From contig JAHLMK010000004.1 of NCBI GenBank assembly GCA_019915135.1, forward strand, positions 2,108,001 to 2,172,000: a stretch of DNA of 64,000 nt, written 5' to 3'. A model generated the notes under the pieces. That model saw only the letters and a program-made list of their open reading frames with translations. It was not told the DNA's origin and ran no database searches. Made by a program: the position numbers and the translations under genes. Below, in pieces: positions 8,078-29,012 of this stretch. Source of the DNA: Strobilurus pachycystidiatus. Lineage: Eukaryota > Basidiomycota > Agaricomycetes > Agaricales > Physalacriaceae. The first letter of the stretch is position 1. Every line of letters begins with the position of its first letter.

Positions 8078-10923
8078 CTACTGCTCTGCCTGTGCTGCCC
8101 TACGATCTCTCTCTACATATGCACGGAGTCTATCTCGTTTCTGATGTAGTGGAATGAGAATATTCAATAAGGGTCCACATGTAGCAGGAGTTCTTACCTC
8201 CTGTTAGTGCCAAGGGGCGCAGATGGGGGGATGGATTCAGACTACAGAGGGTGAGAGGGTGCAGTAGCACTTACACGCTGTTGATGAACATCAGGAGTTT
8301 AGTCTTAACATGAAGGGTTGGAAGGCAGCACATACAAGCTGAACAATAAGGAAACATTAGTCAGCAGTCAGCATGCGTGAGGGACACAGGCCCACTCACA
8401 ATCTGAGAGGAGGGGCCGGTCAGCAGTTAGCATGCGTGACGGACACAGGTGCACTCACATCCTGAAGGGAGGAGCCGGTCAGCAGTCAGCATGCGTGAGG
8501 GACGCAGGCGCACTCACATACTAAAGAGAGGTGCCGGTCAGTAATCAGCATGCGTAAGAGACGCAGGCGCACTCACCTCCTGAAGGGAGGGGCCGGTCAG
8601 CAGTCAGCATGTGTGTCATTGTGTGAGGGATGCAGGCGCACTCACATACTAAAGAGAGGGACCGGTCAGCAATCAGCATGTGTGAGAGACACAGGCAGAC
8701 TCACATCCTGGAGGGAGGGACCGGTCAGCAGTCAGCATGCGTGAGGGAGGCAGGCGCACTCACATCCTGAAGGGAGACACCGGTCAGCAGTCAGCATGCA
8801 TGAGGGACGCAGGCACACTTACATACTGAACATCAGAAGAAGGGATCAATCAGCATCCAGTATGTGTTAGGGAGGCAGTGACACTTACGCTCTAAAGAGA
8901 GAGTTTAATCAGCATTCAACATGCTTAAGGAATGTGATGTTACTTACATTCTGAAGAGAGATAGTTGAGTGTTCAGCACACACAATGGATCCAACAGCAC
9001 TTACATACTAAACATTGAGAGAGTTAGCATTTAGTGTGAAGAAAATGCAACAGCACTTACTTTCTAATTATATCAAACAGTCAATGACTCAATGCACAGG
9101 AGGGTGGAAAGACATGATGGTACTGACCCGTCGCAGACCCATTTGATACAATAGGTCAAATAATTCTTGATTTTGGTTGTACCCGGCAACATCAACTGCT
9201 GATTCAATATCCATCCCTAGAATCCCTCTCTTAGTGCTTTAAACATGATATTGCACTCACTCACATTGCCAATCAGCTTCCTTTGGATTATTCTTCGTGA
9301 GGAGCTCAACAATATTGCGATTTCCCGTCAGTGTAGCTATGTGAAGTGGGGCGCCAAAGTGTTCATCTGATTCCTCTTCAGTACCTTCACTACTCGATGA
9401 TATTTATTTGCTTACCGTCACCTACATTCCGGCTTGCTCCGGCCTCCAGTAAAGCATTGACTACATCAACCTGTTCATTTGCACAAGCAGCGCAAAGTGC
9501 TGTTCCATAGTCTCCACCTAGTTACATATTATCAATATCTGAGCTGTTAACATGACCAGGCTCACCTATTTTGTCCAGTTCCAAAGACTCAATCTTTAGA
9601 AGGAATCGGACCAAGTTCATCTTCCCATAAAATGCTGACAGCTGAAAAGCACTACTGAACCGGTTGTCAGTGACCCATAAATGTGGATTTGCCCCTTTCT
9701 CGATTAAACGCTTGAGCTCCTGTTCCACCGGTGTTGCCTGACACTCCCGTAGAAACAATTCCTCCCACTGCTTCTGAGCACCTTCTAAATTTTCCCAAAT
9801 ATCTTGTAAGGCACCCCAAGCATCACGGAGTGGAATGACAAGAAGCAGAAGAGAAAGAACCTGTCCAAACCCCCATGCATTGTCTCCATTCTGACTGGCC
9901 TTGTTACGACGAAGGGTGAGTTCAATGTCAATGATGAAGAGGATGTTGATGGCAAAAAGGAGCACGAGGTTGACAATGAGGAAGGCGGTACGCGGGGAGG
10001 AATCAGAGACTGCTGAGATGGGAGGCAGGTAAGAAGTTGTGGTAAAACAATCCCCTGCGGAAAAGGGTTGAGAAAGGCCTACCTTGGTCACTAGCCGATT
10101 TTTTCCTCCGTGTGAAGACTCTTTGAATGCGGTCAACAGCCTCGTCGCACCATTTCCAAACTGATTGATGCCGCTCCCGAGACCAGTTATATGAGATGTG
10201 TAGAGTGAGGAAGAAGGCAAAGGGAGGGATGAGGTTGACACCAGGGATGAGAACAAGGGAATACATCACTAATGAAAAGATGCGCAATGGTTTCGATGAC
10301 AGACGCGCATGCGCTCCGACAACCGTAAGCGTGGGGTCACAGCTGGCATCAATGGGCTGGCCAAATTTGGATGGATCGCTCCAAAGCCATATCCCAACGG
10401 CGGCCATGAGCGAGAGGTGGATCGAACCGAGAGTAAGGACAGGCTTCCTAGATATGAAACGCCACGTGCGTTGAGCGATGCGCGATGGTCTCCATCCCCC
10501 CGACAGCAACTCCCGGAGAGGCCCAAACAGAGCTTTGCGCCATGCGCTCCAACTTGCTCTGACGGGGTCCGGGCCATCGCGTCTGCTTTGAGAGTGGACA
10601 TAGAGAATAAACCAAATCCAAGTGCTGGTGTTGTTCATCCAGCTAAGATCCAGGATGATGGCGGCATTGTAGCCGGTGATCCTTTGGTCTCCGGCGCCTT
10701 TGGCCAGGATGATGGTGGTGATGAGGATGGCGAAGGCGACTGCTAGCATGCCGATTGATTGGTCTTTGATGCCCTTCAGCTCGTCCCTAGAAATCTTGTT
10801 ATCCCAGAGGTACACGATGACCGGGAAGAAGCATAGGATATTTTGGGCATAGATGGCTGCCCGAACGCCAATGCCAGAGACGTCCGGGTTGGAGAGGAGA
10901 GTGCTGCATTGGTCGTCGGCCAT
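8078..10923 (-). CDS. Seven-pass membrane/ankyrin-repeat protein with 3-nt microexon tail (paralog A)
   Basis: Proposed exons in transcript order: 10923-10083, 10012-9566, 9517-9416, 9366-9265, 9216-9128, fifteen 3-nt exons, and 8140-8078. They total 1689 nt, or 562 residues in one frame. The start is MADDQCSTLLSN at 10923; an ATG at 10959 is also in frame. Exons 1-2 encode about seven hydrophobic segments (e.g. AAIYAQNILCFFPVIVYLW, SIGMLAVAFAILITTIILA, AFLIVNLVLLFAINILFII). Ankyrin-type units follow: GANPHLWVTD...LSAFYGKMNLVRFLL, GTALCAACANEQVDVVNALLEAGA, GAPLHIATLTGNRNIVELLT, then an LFDLLYQMG helix. The last exon encodes KRDRLRAYV...AAQAEQ and a stop. If the array is not spliced this way, the protein would read on to a TGA at about 9089-9091. 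The family is an unnamed multi-pass ankyrin family seen in Agaricomycetes; its function is unknown. Confidence 0.75.
8141..9127 (-). repeat. Intron/3-nt-microexon minisatellite, array A (15 units)
   Basis: Units of about 59-60 bp. On the minus strand each is an intron of 53-74 nt: GTGAGT or GTAAGT donor, CTGAC branch-like motif often doubled, pyrimidine tract, CTTCAG or TTTAG acceptor. Exactly three bases then follow before the next donor. Microexon starts (low coordinate) and residues in transcript order: 9061 K; 9005 Y; 8948 N; 8889 S; 8823 Y; 8764 D; 8705 D; 8646 Y; 8577 E; 8518 Y; 8459 D; 8400 I; 8336 L; 8275 R; 8198 E. None is a stop. The central units (about 8400-8825) are close copies carrying GCATGC and ACCGGT palindromes. 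The outer units are diverged in their interior yet keep the same splice layout. Confidence 0.85.
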
Positions 10924-12535
10924 GGTGGTGGAAAGGAAGATCAATAGTACCTTTACCATGCCTTTACCATGCGATGTCGAACGTCAACAAATGCCAGGGT
11001 CATATGTCTCCCATGACACCACTCAGCGGCCGACTGTTAAATGATCTTGTGAGGCGGCGTTGGTATCGGCCATACTGTATGTCTGGTCTTTTGAAGAAAA
11101 ATAGAGTATATTGCAACAGAAAGTGCGTCAAGTCGGCTCTGTGCCGGAGGCAAGTACGTGGAGACGCCTACGAATCCGGCAAACGAATGGGTGCGCTGAG
11201 ACGCTCGGATATCCTACGTGATGCCGAAACACTGTGTGCGCCAGGGAATGAAACAAGGCGGCGAGGTGATGGACCGGACGCAGAGACTGAGACCGAGGAT
11301 AGAAAAGATTAGAGATTAGAGGCAGAAACCAAAACCACCATGTACGCACCAACTAGCCTGTGCGCCCCATTCGTATACATGCCGATGGACCAGACAAAGG
11401 GCGACACGGCGAACGAACTGGCTTTGCGTTTTACCCGGAGATATCGCTAGTCCAATCATGAGGCTGGTGTCGAACACAGAAAATGCAAACATACCAGAAC
11501 GACAGCGGTTGGTGGTATCACACCCACCACATGCCGCCGTGCACTACTTATCGCCTCCCTCACTCTGAGAAGTAGTTTCCGAGAATATTGAGTCCACCGC
11601 CGTGGGCCGGACGGACGGCGGCGGCAGCGAGCTGGCAAAGAAGTGGTGCGACGGCGGCCGGAGTAAGTGGCAAAACATCAACTCAAAGTAGCGATCATCC
11701 TGCAGTCGAAGGAATGTAGAAAGACGACGTGAACGCGCCGCAGAGAATAAGGGGAGCGTCTGGACCGGGTGACGAAAGACGACATGGGAGACATCCTGCA
11801 TCGCCAGGCAAAGTGCTGCGTCCAAGGAGGCGTGAAACACGCCAGTCGTGACAACTGGCCAACGAATAAGGAGGAAAAACACGGTTAAAAACAATATATA
11901 CGCACCGGAATATCATGATAAGTGCATGACTGCGTATAATCACTCCGGCGGCCAAGGATACATGCGTCTAGCACCAATCTAAGGGCCCCATCGAGAGCGC
12001 CGCCCTCGTCCTCGTCGTTGGACGACTCGCGTTCAGAAACCGTACATCAGATGAGAACCCTGATCTGGTGCATGGTTTTTGGGGGGCGGGAAGTCGGGAC
12101 GATGACGAGGAGATATGGGTGGGTGCCTCACACAGGGCTGACCCGAATCTACAGAACTACTTATTAGCAAAAAGAAACGGATACGCCATGCACAGCTGAC
12201 GTATCCAATGGAAAATCGACAGAAAATCACCTTGCGTCGGGCGCCCGCCTCCAAGCAGCGCGCCCAGCTCGTTCCGCGCTCCCATTCATCACGCGGCGAA
12301 TTACTGTGTTCTCCGTCGGTGCCGTACTCCACCTTCGTAGGAGTCGTCGTCGTCTTGCGGACCGCGTGCGGTCCATGTTCATGTTGGTGACGCGTCATGT
12401 TCTTGGTGACCGGGGCAACCAAACCCAACGGCGCCGCGCAGCCGCGCCCAGAGACAGCCGGGGTCGACGACGGGGACGAAAGACGCACGACCTGCATCAA
12501 GCTGGTCGTGGTAAGTACGAAGGCAAGAGCTGCAG
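10924..12535. other. Duplicated 5' flank of paralog A, no clear gene
   Basis: This 1.6 kb is conserved in 27406-29012, but the open frames in the two copies are interrupted at different places by small insertions and deletions. That argues against a shared coding gene. The interval should contain the promoter of paralog A. Short GT-rich stretches resembling splice sites occur (e.g. GTAAGTACG near 12512), but no exon chain could be built. Confidence 0.45.
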
Positions 12536-23312: not shown

Positions 23313-26300
23313 TTACTGCCCCGCCTGTGCTGCAATACGATCTCTCTTCACATATTCACGGAGTGTATCTCGTTTCTGAAGCCGTGGTATGAGAACAAGG
23401 GTCTATTTGTAGCGGGAGTACTCACCTGCTGTTGGTGCCAAGGGAGAGGGAAATGGATTCAGACTACAGAAGGTGAGAAGGTCCAGTAGCACTTACTTTC
23501 TGTTGGTGAGCATCAGGAGTTCAGTCTTAACATGGAGAGTTAGAAGGCAGCACATACAAGCTGAACATTGAGGAAACATCAGTCAGTGTCCATCATGCGT
23601 GAGGAACATAGTTGGACTTACTAACTGAAGGAAGGGAGCGGTTAGGGTTCAGCATGTGTGAGAGATGCAGGGGCACTTACATCCTGAAAGGAGGGACCGG
23701 TCAGCGGTCAGCATGCGTGAGGGACACAGGCGCACTCACATACTGAAGGAAGGGACCGGTCAGCAGTAGCATGCATGAGGGACGCAGGCGCACTCACACG
23801 CTGAAGGGAGAGACCGGTCAGTGTTCAGCATGCGTGAGGGACGCAGGCGCACTCACACGCTGAAGGGAGAGACCGGTCAGCATTCAGCATGCATGGGGGA
23901 CGCAGGCGCACTCACACGCTGAAGGGAGGGACCGGTCAGCATTCAGCATGCATGGGGGACGCAGGCGCACTTACCTCCTGAAGGGAGGGACCGGTCAGCA
24001 TTCAGCATGCATGAGGGACGCAGGCGCACTTACCTCCTGAAGGGAGGGACCGGTCAGCAGTCAGCATGCATGAGGGACGCAGGCGCAATTACCTCCTGAA
24101 GGGAGGGACCGGTCAGCAGCCAGCATGCATGAGGGATGCAGGCGCACTCACACGCTGAAGGGAGGGACCGGTCAGCATTCAGCATGCATGAGGGACGCAG
24201 GCGCACTCACACGCTGAAGGGAGGGACCGGTCAGTGTTCAGCATGCATGAGGGACGCAGGCGCACTCACACGCTGAAGGGAGGGACCGGTCAGCAGGCAG
24301 CATGCATGAGGAACACAGGCGCACTCACACGCTGAAGGGAGGGACCGGTCAGTGTCACTGTTCAGCATGCATGAGGGATGCAGGCGCCTCACACGCTGAA
24401 GAGAGGGACCGGTCAGCAGTCAGCATGCGTGAGGAACATAGTTGGACTTACTAACTGAAAGAAGGGAGCGGTCAGGGTTTAGCATGTGTGAGAGATGCAG
24501 GGGCACTTACATCCTGAAGGAAGCCGGGACTGGTCAGCAGTCAGCATGTGTGAGGGACATAGGCGCACTCACAGGCTGAAGGGAGGGACCGGTCAGTGTT
24601 CAGCATGCATGAGGGACACAGGCGCACTTACATCCTAGAAGGAAGGATGTGTCAGTGTCCAGCATGTGTGAGGGAACATAGGCACACTTACATACTGAAG
24701 GGAGGGACCGGTCAGTAGTCAGCATGCATCAGGGACGCGGGCGCGCTTACATCCTGAAGGGAGGGGTCAGCAGTCAGTATCTGTGGGAGACACAGTTGCA
24801 CTTACATCCTAGAAGGAAGGATGTGTCAGCGTCCAGCATGTGTGAGGGAACACAGGCACACTTACATACTGAAGGGAGGGACCGGTCAGCAGTTGGCATG
24901 CATGAGGGACACAGGCGCACTTACATCCTGAAGGGAGGGACCGGTCAGCAGTCAGTATGTGTGGGAGATACAGTTGCACTTACATCCTAAAAGGAAGGAT
25001 GTGTCAGCGTCCAGCATGTGTGAGGGAACACAGGCATACTTACATACTAAAGAGAGGGACCGGTCAGCAGTCGGCATGCGTGAGGGACACAGGTACACTT
25101 ACAAGCTGAAGGGAGGGACCGGTCAGCATTTGGCATGCATGAGGGAACACAAGCACACTTACATCCTGAAGGGAGGGACCGGTCAGCAGTCAGTATATGT
25201 GGGAGACACAGTTGCACTTACATCCTAGAAGGAAAGATGTGTCAGCGTCCAGCATGTGTGTGAGAGATGAATCAGTCTGTGAGATGGATTATCACTCACA
25301 TACTGAACATCATAGGAAAGGGATTGATCAGCATCCAGTATGTGTGAGGGAGACAGTGACACCTACGTTCTAAAGGGAGAGTTCAATCAGCATTCAGAAT
25401 GCTTGAGAAATGTAATGTTACTTACATGCTGAAGAGAGATAGTCAAGTATTCAGCATAAATAATGGATCCACTAGCACTTACATTCTAAACATTGAGAGA
25501 GTTAGCATTTAGTGTGAAGAAAATGCAACAGCACTCACTTTCTAATTATATCAAATAGTCAATGACTCAATGCATAGAAGGGTGAAGAGACATGATGGTA
25601 CTGACCCCTCTCAGACCCATTTGATACAATAGGTCAAATAATTCTTGATTTTGGATGTACCTGGCAACATCAACTGCTGTTCCAATATCCTCCCCTAGAT
25701 TCCCTCTCTTAGTGCTTGAAACATGATAATTGCACTCACTCACATAGCCAATCAGCTTCATTTGGATTATCTTTCATGAGGAGCTCAACAATATTGCGAT
25801 TTCCCATCAGTATAGCTAAGTGAAGTGGGACTCCAAAGTGTTCTCCTGATTCCTCTTCAGTGCTTTCACTCCTTGGTGATGTTTATTTGCTTACCATCAC
25901 TTATATTCTGGCTTGCTCCGGCCTCCAACAAAACATTGACTACATCAACCTGTTCATTTGCACAAGCAGCACAAAGTGCTGTTCCGTAGTCTCCGCCTAA
26001 TTACATATTATCAATATCTGATATGTTAACATGACCAGGCTCACCTATTTTGTCCAGTTCCAAAAATTCAATCCTTAGAAGGAATCGTACCAGGTCAATC
26101 TTCCCATAGAATGCTGACAGCTGAAGAGCACTATCAAATCGAGTGTCAGTGACCCATAAATGTGGATTTGCCCCTTTCTCAATTAAACGCTTGAGCTCCT
26201 GTTCCACCGGTGTCGCTTGACACTCCCGTAAAAACAATTCCTCCCACTGCTTCTGAGCGCCTTCCAGATTTTCCCAAATATCTTGTAATGCACCCCAAGC

Positions 26301-27405
26301 ATCACGGAGCGGAATAACAAGAAGCAGAAGAGCAAGAACCTGTCCAAACCCCCATGCATTGTCTCCACCCCGACTGGCCTTGTTACGACGAAGGGTGAGT
26401 TCAATGTCAACAATGAAAAGGATGTTGATGGCAAAAAGGAGCACGAGGTCGACAATGAGAAAGGCGGTATGCGGGGAGTAATCAGAGACTGCTGAAACGG
26501 GAGGTAGGTAAGAAGTTGTGGTAGGACAATCCCTTGCAGAGGAGGGTTGAGAAAGGCCAACCTTGGTCACTAGCCAAGTTCTTCCTCCGCGTGAAGACTC
26601 TTTGAAGGCGGTGGACAGCCTCATCCCACCATTTCCAAACTGATTGATGCCGCTCCCGAGACCAGTTATATGAGATGTGTAGAGTGAGGAAGAAGGCAAA
26701 GGGAGGGATGAGGTTGACGCCAGGGATGAGAACAAGGGAATACATCACTAAGGAAATGATGCGCAATGGTTTTGATGAAAGACGTGCATGCGCTCCGACA
26801 ACTGTAAGCGTGGGGTCACAGCTGGAATCAATGGGCTGGCCAAATTTGGATGGATCGCTCCATAGCCATATCCCAACGGCGGCCATGAGCGAGAGGTGGA
26901 TGGAACCGAGAGTAAGGACAGGCTTCCTAGAGATGAAACGCCACAGGCGTTGAGCGATGCGCAATGGTCTCCATCCCTCTGACAGCAGCTCCCGGAGAGG
27001 TCCAAACAGAGATTTGCGCCATGCGCTCCAACTTGCTCTGACGGGGTCCGGCCCGTCGCGCCTGCTTTGAGAGTGGACATAGAGAATGAACCAGATCCAC
27101 GTGCTGGTGTTGTTCATCCAGCTAAGATCCAGGACGATGGCGGCATTGTAACCGGTGATCCTTTGGTCTCCAGCGCCGCCTTTGGCCAGGATGATGGTGG
27201 TAAGGAGGATGGCGAAAGCGACTGCTAGCATGCCGATTGATTGGTCCTTGATGCCCTTCAGCTCGTCCCTAGAAATCTTGTTATCCCAGAGGTACACGAT
27301 GACCGGGAAGAAGCATAGGATATTTTGGGCGTAGATGGCTGCCCGAACGCCAATGCCAGAGACGTCTGGGTTGGAGAGGAGAGTGCTGCATTGGTCGTCG
27401 GCCAT
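23313..27405 (-). CDS. Seven-pass membrane/ankyrin-repeat protein with 3-nt microexon tail (paralog B)
   Basis: Proposed exons: 27405-26562, 26491-26045, 25996-25895, 25845-25744, 25694-25606, thirty-six 3-nt exons, and 23375-23313. They total 1755 nt, or 584 residues, in one frame, giving 41 introns. The protein is highly similar to paralog A: the same MADDQCSTLLSN start, the same membrane segments and the same ankyrin-type units (GANPHLWVTD, LSAFYGKIDLVRFLL, LLEAGASQNI). The first intron has a GTTGGC donor here instead of GTAGGC. The terminal exon encodes KRDTLREYV...AAQAGQ and a stop. The tail between the LLYQMGLRG helix and the terminal exon would be 36 residues from the array, against 15 in paralog A. 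If the array is not spliced, translation would stop at a TGA near 25569. Confidence 0.75.
23376..25605 (-). repeat. Intron/3-nt-microexon minisatellite, array B (36 units)
   Basis: Thirty-seven consecutive introns of 50-75 nt (mostly 56) are separated by 3-nt exons. Microexon low coordinates in transcript order: K 25539; N 25483; H 25426; N 25367; Y 25300; D 25222 and 25163; L 25103; Y 25044; D 24984 and 24925; Y 24866; D 24806 and 24751; Y 24692; D 24632; P 24573; D 24511; L 24452; R 24393, 24329, 24270, 24211 and 24152; E 24093, 24034 and 23975; R 23916, 23857 and 23798; Y 23740; D 23681; L 23622 and 23558; K 23497; Q 23426. Donors are GTGAGT, GTAAGT, GTATGT, GTAGGT, GTAATT, GTGAGG and, first, GTCAGT. 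All introns end in AG. Most have CTGAC 17-25 nt before the acceptor. Confidence 0.85.
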
Positions 27406-29012
27406 GGTGGTGGAAACGAAGAATCAATTGTACACGTGGCAGACCTTGCGAAAGCTTACCATGCCTTTACCATGCGATGTCGAACGTCAAAGAACGCCAC
27501 GGTTTGACGGGTCATCTATTTCCCTAACATTGCTCAGCGGCCGACTCTTGAATTATCTTGTGTGGCGGCGTTGTTATCGGCCATATGTCTGTTCTTTTGA
27601 AGAAAGTTAAATTATATTGCAACAGAAAGTGTGTCAAGGCGGCTCTGTGCCGGAGGCAAGTACGTGGAGACGCCGACGAATCCGGAAAACGAATGCCCAT
27701 TAAGCTCGGTCATCCTACGTGACGCCGAAACACTGTATGCGCCAGGGAATGAAACAAGGCGGCGAGGTGATGGACCAGACGCAGAGACTGAGACCGAGGC
27801 AGAAGGCTATAGAAAAGATTAGAGGCGGAAACCAAAAACACCATGTACGCACCAACCAGCCTGTGCGCCCCCACTTCCGCATACACGCCGATGGACCAGA
27901 CAAAGGGCGACACGGAGAACGAACTGGTTTTGCGTTCCACCCGGAGATATTGCTAGTCCAATTATGAGGCTGGTGTCGAACACACCAAAACGCCAGCGGT
28001 TGGTGGTATCGCACCCACCACATGCCGTCGTGCACCATCGCCTCCCTCACTCCGAGAATATTGAGTCCACCGCCGTGGGCGAGACGGGCGGCAGCGCGGC
28101 GCGGCGGCGAGCTGGCAAAGGACTGGTGCGACGGCGGCCGAGTGACACAACGACAAGTCAAGATAGCGATCATCCTGTAGTCGAAAAGAATGTAGAAAGG
28201 CGACGTGACCGCGCCGGGTGACGAAAGACGACATGGGAGACATCCTGCATCGCCAGGCAAAGTGCTGCGTCCAAGGGCGGCGCGAAACACGCCAGTCGTG
28301 ACAGCTGGCTAGCGAATAAGGAGGAAGAACGCGGTTAAAAACAATATATACGCACCGTAATACTACGACAAGTGCATGACTGCGTATGAGCACACTGGCG
28401 GCCGAGGATACGTGCGTCTCGCACCAACCTTGGGGCCCATCGAGAGCGCCGCCCTCGTCCTCGTCGTTGGACGACTCGCGTTCAAAAACCGTACATCAGA
28501 TGAGGACACTTATCTGGTGCATGGTTTTTGGGGGGGCGGGAAGTCAGGACGACGACGAGGAGATATGAGTGGGTGCCTCACAGAGGGCGTACCCCGCGCG
28601 GAGATCTGAATCTACACAACTATCAGCAAAAAGAAACGGATACGCCATGCACAGCTGACGTATCCGATGGAAAATCATAAAAAATCACCTTGCGTTGACG
28701 CCCGCCTCCAAGCAGCGCGCCCAGCTCGTTCCGGCGGCCCCGCGCGCTCCCATTCATCACGCGGCGGGGAGTTGTGCTCTCCGTCGGTGCCCTACGCCAC
28801 CTGCCCGTCGTACGAGTCGCCGTCGTCTTGGACACCGCGTGCGGACCATGTTGGTCGCGTCATGTTAGACTTGGTGACCGTGGCAATCAAGCCAACGGCG
28901 CAGCGCAGCCAAAAGCGCCGCGCCCAGAGACCGCCGGGGTCGACGCCGGGGACGAAAGACGCACGAACCTGCATCAAGCTGGGCGTGGTAAGTACGAAAG
29001 CAAGAGCTACTG
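27406..29012. other. Duplicated 5' flank of paralog B, no clear gene
   Basis: Counterpart of 10924-12535. Open frames are not preserved between the two copies, so no gene is called. It should hold the promoter of paralog B. Confidence 0.45.

Follow-up and report, generated by a model that had tools for sequence, protein, structure and literature searches.

A gene on the minus strand of the 64,000 nucleotides of Strobilurus pachycystidiatus DNA analyzed here (the window) carries a minisatellite in which each repeat unit has the anatomy of a short spliceosomal intron followed by a single codon. We consider it probable (roughly 0.72) that these one-codon exons are spliced under intron definition, and that they encode a hypervariable protein tail to which every repeat contributes one residue. 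The initial annotation had proposed this gene structure, a minisatellite of introns and one-codon exons, and it is well supported: three paralogs have it, the splice sites are conserved, and the edge introns are old and mutually unrelated. Two findings go beyond that proposal: a third paralog lies outside the window, and the codons are hypervariable relative to their introns.

Anatomy of gene A and its array

Gene A (27405–23313, minus strand) was modeled with 42 exons and a CDS of 1755 nt, which starts with ATG at 27405, ends with TAA at 23315-23313 and would encode a membrane-ankyrin protein of 584 aa. The exon total of 1755 nt given by the initial annotation, a multiple of three with sense codons throughout, was confirmed, with 0 internal stops. 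Exon 1 (26562..27405, 844 nt) encodes hydrophobic segments according to the gene model, hydropathy and Mycena homologs, and is followed by exon 2 (26045..26491, 447 nt), two ankyrin exons of 102 nt each (exon 3, 25895..25996; exon 4, 25744..25845) and the last ordinary exon, exon 5 (25606..25694, 89 nt), which ends in phase 0 with ...MGLRG. An alternative in-frame acceptor is located 9 nt upstream of exon 4, so the 5' part of the model is not unique. A tandem acceptor CAGCAG is present at exon 2 (26489-26494) in all three paralogs, and its use would add or drop one codon.

The array itself (23376..25605, minus strand, 2230 bp) comprises 37 introns separated by 36 microexons of exactly 3 nt, and the microexons together would encode KNHNYDDLYDDYDDYDPDLRRRRREEERRRYDLLKQ. 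Intron lengths range from 50–75 nt, with a first intron of 64 nt, a last intron of 50 nt and the longest of 75 nt. The terminal exon (23313..23375, minus strand, 63 nt) encodes KRDTLREYVKRDRIAAQAGQ followed by the stop, and its frame and stop position are as in paralogs B and C. Every countable statement of the initial annotation on the region from 25606 to the terminal exon (23375-23313), including the 37 introns and 36 microexons, was reproduced by the gene model.

Most of the array is a young minisatellite core (23625..25232, minus strand; TRF period 59, 27 copies) that corresponds to core units A6-A33. It is flanked by an old left edge (25300..25605, minus strand) with introns 1-5 and the microexons AAA, AAT, CAT, AAC and TAT, and by an old right edge (23376..23621, minus strand) with introns 34-37 and the microexons CTT, AAA and CAG. 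Both edges correspond one-to-one with those of B and C; the counterparts in C of right-edge introns 35, 36 and 37 are unrelated in body. Signs of multi-unit duplication are visible within array A, both in the blocks 24513-24393 and 23683-23558 (introns 19-20 and 33-34, with TTA between) and in units 10-16, where intron subtypes recur with a period of three. A reading of the whole array as one open frame was rejected: on both strands, the longest stop-free stretch of the unspliced sequence is 102 aa in A, 81 aa in B and 69 aa in C, and the period of 59 is not divisible by three.

In the favored reading, the repeat unit would be a complete spliceosomal intron of ~56 nt plus one codon, and the short introns would be removed in turn by intron definition while the codon stays attached. 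Short introns are normally recognized across the intron, and single-codon exons thus need not be recognized as exons. Each unit would place one more residue between the ankyrin domain and the short charged C-terminal tail. Since an intron and 3 nt in phase 0 make up every unit, the frame is preserved whenever units are duplicated, deleted or skipped, and arrays can therefore lengthen or shrink (36, 15 and 32 units in the three paralogs). An exon of 3 nt offers little space to two splice complexes simultaneously, and skipping may consequently be common; partial skipping would let one gene yield tails of various lengths.

Three paralogs and genome-wide specificity of the unit

Paralog B (8078..10923, minus strand) was modeled with 21 exons, 15 of which are microexons of 3 nt (KYNSYDDYEYDILRE), and a CDS of 1689 nt; its array (8141..9127, minus strand, 987 bp) consists of these 15 microexons and 16 introns. 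As had been claimed for the paralog, the stop lies at the same position as in gene A, with TAG in place of TAA. Paralog C is located on the same contig, ~24 kb before the start of the window (contig C4 from 2079819; locus L036, G000:C4:2078500-2085500), on the strand opposite to A and B, and has 32 microexons and a CDS of 1743 nt. Of the three arrays, C has the most homogeneous core introns. The A/B alignment (85% identity, 24813-29008 versus 8348-12531) reaches ~1.6 kb upstream of the start codon, and hence the promoter region was probably duplicated too.

Arrays were delimited by a parser that sought AG-NNN-GT stepwise, with loose requirements at donor positions +3 to +6 and with +6 widened to take GTAAGC. 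As GT, AG and the 3-nt length are imposed by this parser, only the unbroken chain counts as evidence. Such a chain extends from the last ankyrin exon to the terminal exon in all three paralogs (83 microexons and 86 introns). A strict pattern, consisting of a donor, a branch-like CTRAC, an acceptor, three bases and a donor, had 58 matches in the 51.8-Mb genome, of which 56 were in the three arrays (23 in A, 8 in B and 25 in C) and two elsewhere; the reversed control had one match. With a DNA query of two core units, at least 47 matches were obtained, all at the three paralogous loci and none elsewhere. With the pattern nearly confined to the three loci and all matches of unit DNA located there, the arrays belong to this gene family in this genome and not to its introns generally.

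The distantly related loci L037 (contig C7) and L038 (contig C10) were considered as further array genes and rejected: both match the N-terminal region only, the exon 5 query misses both, and a scan for short exons revealed no array at either locus. L038 looks like a fragment. When a spliced (processed) retrocopy was sought across the genome with a 35-residue tail query, only the three genomic terminal exons matched.

Exons 1-5 of A, B and C are under purifying selection, with dN/dS of 0.23-0.26 over all three pairs (0.24-0.26 for A versus B and C). For the terminal exon, dN/dS was 0.9-1.2 on 5-8 changes, without clear purifying selection. The constraint on exons 1-5 bears on the idea that the gene is dead or dying and its array a degenerating repeat, regular only through recent descent. 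While the core units are indeed young and alike, above all in C, purifying selection acts in all three pairs, and the edge units are old (20% of body columns variable) and have kept GT and AG intact, which makes decay extremely improbable.

Intron-like behavior of the units

Across the 86 array introns, U2-type features prevail: GT-AG in 86 of 86 (imposed by the parser), GTRAGT donors in 73 and CTRAY in 76. The GTRAGT donor was found in only 3 of the 12 ordinary introns 1-4 of the same genes. A CTGAC in each unit, as described in the initial annotation, is thus the usual state and not a universal one. Retention of any single intron would cause a frameshift or a stop in 81 of the 86 cases.

Nine edge introns (five left, four right) pair one-to-one between the paralogs. 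None of their 36 GT/AG columns is variable, compared to 89 of 454 columns in the intron bodies (P = 0.0011), and 5 of 36 columns vary at donor positions +3 to +6. Matched edge introns differ by indels (68, 74 and 73 nt, or 50, 57 and 50 nt, in A, B and C, respectively), and the exons are constant at 3 nt. The outermost introns of C (L1, R3, R2 and R1) have no mutual body similarity (z −0.2 to 1.2 against shuffles), and neither do L1 and L2 (z −0.1 against shuffles). Despite these unrelated bodies, GT-AG and one-codon exons persist between L1 and L2, R3 and R2, and R2 and R1. Of the 56 core columns, 12 do not vary among the 59 units, all four GT/AG columns included (chance 0.0013); the parser would have failed upon a change in these columns, and it did not fail. 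The most variable intron column is donor position +3 (A/G), with 17.2 held-out steps. The conservation of the edge introns and the 3-nt spacing between unrelated introns argue that the units function as introns.

These data also bear on the possibility that most or all microexons are skipped and that the array leaves as one or a few large introns, the internal sites being cryptic or stepping sites. Exons of 3 nt are hard to recognize, and such a transcript would keep the frame, since the junctions at the end of exon 5 and at the start of the terminal exon are both in phase 0. In that case, however, the internal sites should decay, and they are intact, including those of old edge units whose bodies are unrelated. 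The ordinary introns between the exons of these genes also measure 48-70 nt, far below 2.2 kb. We regard removal of the array in this manner as unlikely, and the variability of the codons described below speaks against it as well.

Variability of the single codons

The 83 microexons represent 18 different codons and no stop, where 2.4 stops are expected from position composition. This absence of stops is weak evidence of translation and not significant. For a comparison of codons and introns, 28 core units of A, 7 of B and 24 of C were used together with 56 intron columns. Diversity at codon positions 1, 2 and 3 was 0.67, 0.60 and 0.32 in the A core (intron mean 0.19) and 0.71, 0.62 and 0.08 in the C core (intron mean 0.05). 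In both arrays, none of the 56 intron columns reached the diversity of codon position 1 or 2, whereas 16 columns in A and 18 in C reached that of position 3. The core of B, with seven units, had a codon excess at position 1 only, intron columns as high numbering 1 there, then 22 at positions 2 and 3.

For a count of parsimony steps, one half of the intron columns served to build trees and the other half was held out. Codon positions 1, 2 and 3 required 24.1, 17.8 and 5.7 steps, respectively, and the held-out intron columns a mean of 3.5 and a maximum of 17.2. As recombination between units can inflate held-out parsimony counts, allele counts were made as well; they showed an exon excess with P = 0.00024 in C, P = 0.025 in A, P = 0.058 in B and P = 0.0098 in the pooled data.

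The relation between codons and adjacent introns differed among the arrays. Five introns of C are identical over their 56 nt and are followed by TAT, CCT, TAT, TAT and GAT; neighboring core units have the codon in common in 0.04 of cases, while their introns are 94% identical. Neighboring units of A have the codon in common in 0.41 of cases, and runs of CGT and GAG look like fresh duplicates. Codon and intron similarity were uncorrelated in A (Mantel r = −0.03; 1120 of 2000 permutations as high) and C (r = 0.13; 186 of 2000) and correlated in B (r = 0.70; 10 of 2000). With its seven core units and this correlation, B is either against codon hypervariability or silent on it. The eight edge microexons had 9 of 24 columns variable versus 89 of 454 in the intron bodies (P = 0.064), and their dN/dS was 2.8 (A-B), 0.7 (A-C) and 0.55 (B-C) on ~4 synonymous sites, without a consistent signal of positive selection.

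The difference of codon positions 1 and 2, and not of position 3, from the introns in A and C suggests that the codons are read, and it is this difference that further weakens the case for skipping of the microexons. Since the core introns are young and alike and the hypervariability of the codons falls on the two positions that largely determine the amino acid, we infer diversifying selection on the encoded residues. The arrays could then act as codon-by-codon diversity generators, in which the intron is homogenised and each unit holds one hypervariable codon, unequal exchange changes the length in one-residue steps, the residues diversify under selection, and very many tails per gene arise when any subset of microexons is skipped in frame. 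We put forward this extended scenario tentatively, and consider it possible rather than probable.

Identical introns beside different codons would be explained without selection if introner-like elements had been inserted repeatedly into a once continuous coding stretch. Both the identical introns between different codons in C and the uncorrelated codon and intron similarity in A and C are compatible with such an origin. Insertions would not, however, always land every 3 nt in phase 0, as found for 83 of 83 microexons, and the repeated multi-unit blocks in A (around introns 19-20 and 33-34) are a mark of tandem duplication. Moreover, introner-like elements are described, in the accessible text, at hundreds of copies in unrelated genes (PMC4457414), and a dispersed introner family was rejected here with the confinement of unit-like DNA (the at least 47 matches) to three loci. 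Introner insertion is the least probable of the explanations considered, and tandem growth of intron-plus-codon units is retained as the preferred one.

The encoded protein and its relatives

The predicted protein consists, in this order, of a hydrophobic region, ankyrin repeats, the array-encoded residues and a short charged C-terminal tail. Hydrophobic segments were located in residues 18-351 of the gene A protein by simple hydropathy. In a Pfam search with the paralog B protein, only Ank_2/Ank scored above the cut-off, and no NACHT/NB-ARC or NOD domain was found. The array-encoded tails are predicted to be polar and rich in Tyr, Asp and Arg, which account for 22 of 36 (A), 8 of 15 (B) and 21 of 32 (C) residues.

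A protein search yielded 258 proteins with E ≤ 0.001, and the four best named, among the best 120 of these 258, are from Mycena (61-69% identity). Further searches were performed with the ankyrin region (all 65 matches) and with an alignment query (the best 120 of 255 matches). The protein family, with its N-terminal hydrophobic region and ankyrin repeats, is frequent in Mycena and related mushrooms. A motif scan for the C-terminal tail found none among the 262 relatives listed, the sole match (P0234) being an unrelated stretch and rejected. The boundary pattern at the ankyrin end was found in 10 of the 262 listed proteins; P0128 and P0197 are among those that it overlooked. Two Mycena proteins, P0121 and P0122 (both labeled partial), end at the exon 5 boundary or within two residues of it, and others with the boundary pattern continue into differing short tails. 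Such stops and divergences at the boundary fit a loss of the gene by the annotation at that point.

The same relatives can be read as favoring an earlier end of the protein, at the TGA at 25569 in intron 1 (GLRGVSTIMSLHPSMH stop), with the array as a 3' untranslated minisatellite. In-frame read-through of intron 1 (25605-25567) gives VSTIMSLHPSMH and then this TGA, an in-frame stop occurs at the identical place in A, B and C, and several Mycena gene models finish at or shortly past the boundary. This reading would, on the other hand, place 36 further intron-like units downstream of the stop, and a stop upstream of many introns is a classic decay signal. It also gives no reason for 83 of 83 spacers to remain at 3 nt, and the frame and stop position of the terminal exon are common to the three paralogs. 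We therefore consider termination in intron 1 very unlikely.

One relative may carry an array of its own. After GLR, P0201 (Mycena vulgaris) continues with PLLSSIQQDI, PLPSSIQQLI, LLPSSIQQII, PLPSSIQQEI and LLPSSVQQRI, and then VSAVASF. These are five 10-residue repeats at the corresponding position of the gene, each with a Pro/Leu/Ser stretch that ends in Gln-Gln, then a variable residue (D, L, I, E or R) and Ile. Pro, Leu and Ser possibly reflect pyrimidine-rich codons, as in a translated pyrimidine tract, QQ would correspond to CAGCAG, and VSA fits GTGAGTGC, from which we infer a homologous array. Judged by its protein sequence alone, P0201 may thus be a mis-annotated array with exons of 6 nt, the first codon of which is variable; the alternative is a continuous coding repeat of 30 nt. 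The array system may extend to other Mycena species. In P0209 (Mycena leptocephala), GLR is followed by twelve residues (PHNRDRDPHYRD) with a make-up like that of the array-encoded tails.

Comparison with known systems and biological meaning

The micro-exon genes (MEGs) of schistosomes are the nearest known design. According to the accessible text of two accounts, they possess 10-20 short exons, the majority of 15 bp, separated by introns of 0.1-5 kb, and encode secreted proteins; alternative splicing generates protein variants, dN/dS is high, and automatic annotation had difficulty with them (PMC10526429, PMC4350168). The fungal arrays resemble them in their runs of very short exons, whose length is mostly a multiple of three in MEGs and always so here (36, 15 and 32 exons, all in phase 0). 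Whereas the coding region of MEGs, as far as those accounts describe it, consists largely of microexons, these make up 108 of the 1755 nt of the gene A CDS. Further differences are the uniform 3-nt exons, the introns of 50-75 nt, the minisatellite and the membrane-ankyrin gene of a fungus.

Isolated microexons of 3 nt and 1 nt have been described in Drosophila homothorax (PMC7392893) and in plant APC11/VPS55 (PMC8831610), in the parts of these papers available. They demonstrate the splicing of such tiny exons in animals and plants, but they are isolated and do not form an array of dozens. Human RPS24 has three consecutive microexons, and a 3-bp exon is mentioned (PMC11162997, PMC12686416); the similarity lies in consecutive microexons, and the difference in three as opposed to dozens, apparently without a repeat array in the text available. 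Among fungi, a functional microexon has been described in Trichoderma Xlr2, in an account that calls knowledge of fungal microexons limited (PMC11121469); this is one microexon in one gene, in contrast to the dozens found here. Fungal introner-like elements also form families of near-identical introns, but as described in the accessible text they are dispersed (PMC4457414), while the arrays are strictly tandem and occur at three loci. The initial annotation had called a gene that grows by one codon per repeat undescribed in fungi. This agrees with the open-access literature, in which we found no chain of one-codon exons (most subscription papers lie outside this scope), although absence is not provable thereby.

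For fungal NLRs whose repeats are highly conserved internally, among them the Podospora hnwd family, the available text reports homogenised tandem repeats that vary in number and contain hypervariable sites subject to diversifying selection (PMC4986451). The repeats of NLRs (WD40, ANK, TPR) are fully translated there, whereas the homogenised part is the intron here and the exon is the variable codon alone. Since the conserved part is intron, the likeness of the internally conserved repeats with hypervariable codons in A and C is an analogy only. A diversifying binding or recognition surface like the repeat domains of fungal NLRs (PMC4986451) is a reasonable guess and no more, and the arrays may have a role in non-self recognition, as for repeat proteins of other fungi.

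A repeat that is an intron, with an exon that is one hypervariable codon, would be a new kind of system if RNA bears out the splicing. The array genes illustrate why genes of this type would escape annotation pipelines. Should the microexons be included by splicing, the gene would gain exactly one amino acid with every minisatellite repeat, the repeat being the intron, and dozens of consecutive 3-nt exons would form an extreme series of tiny exons and a natural test of intron definition without exons. The arrays would also represent a way for tandem repeats to expand inside coding sequence with the frame always preserved, and a compact system for the diversification of single codons within homogenised surroundings.
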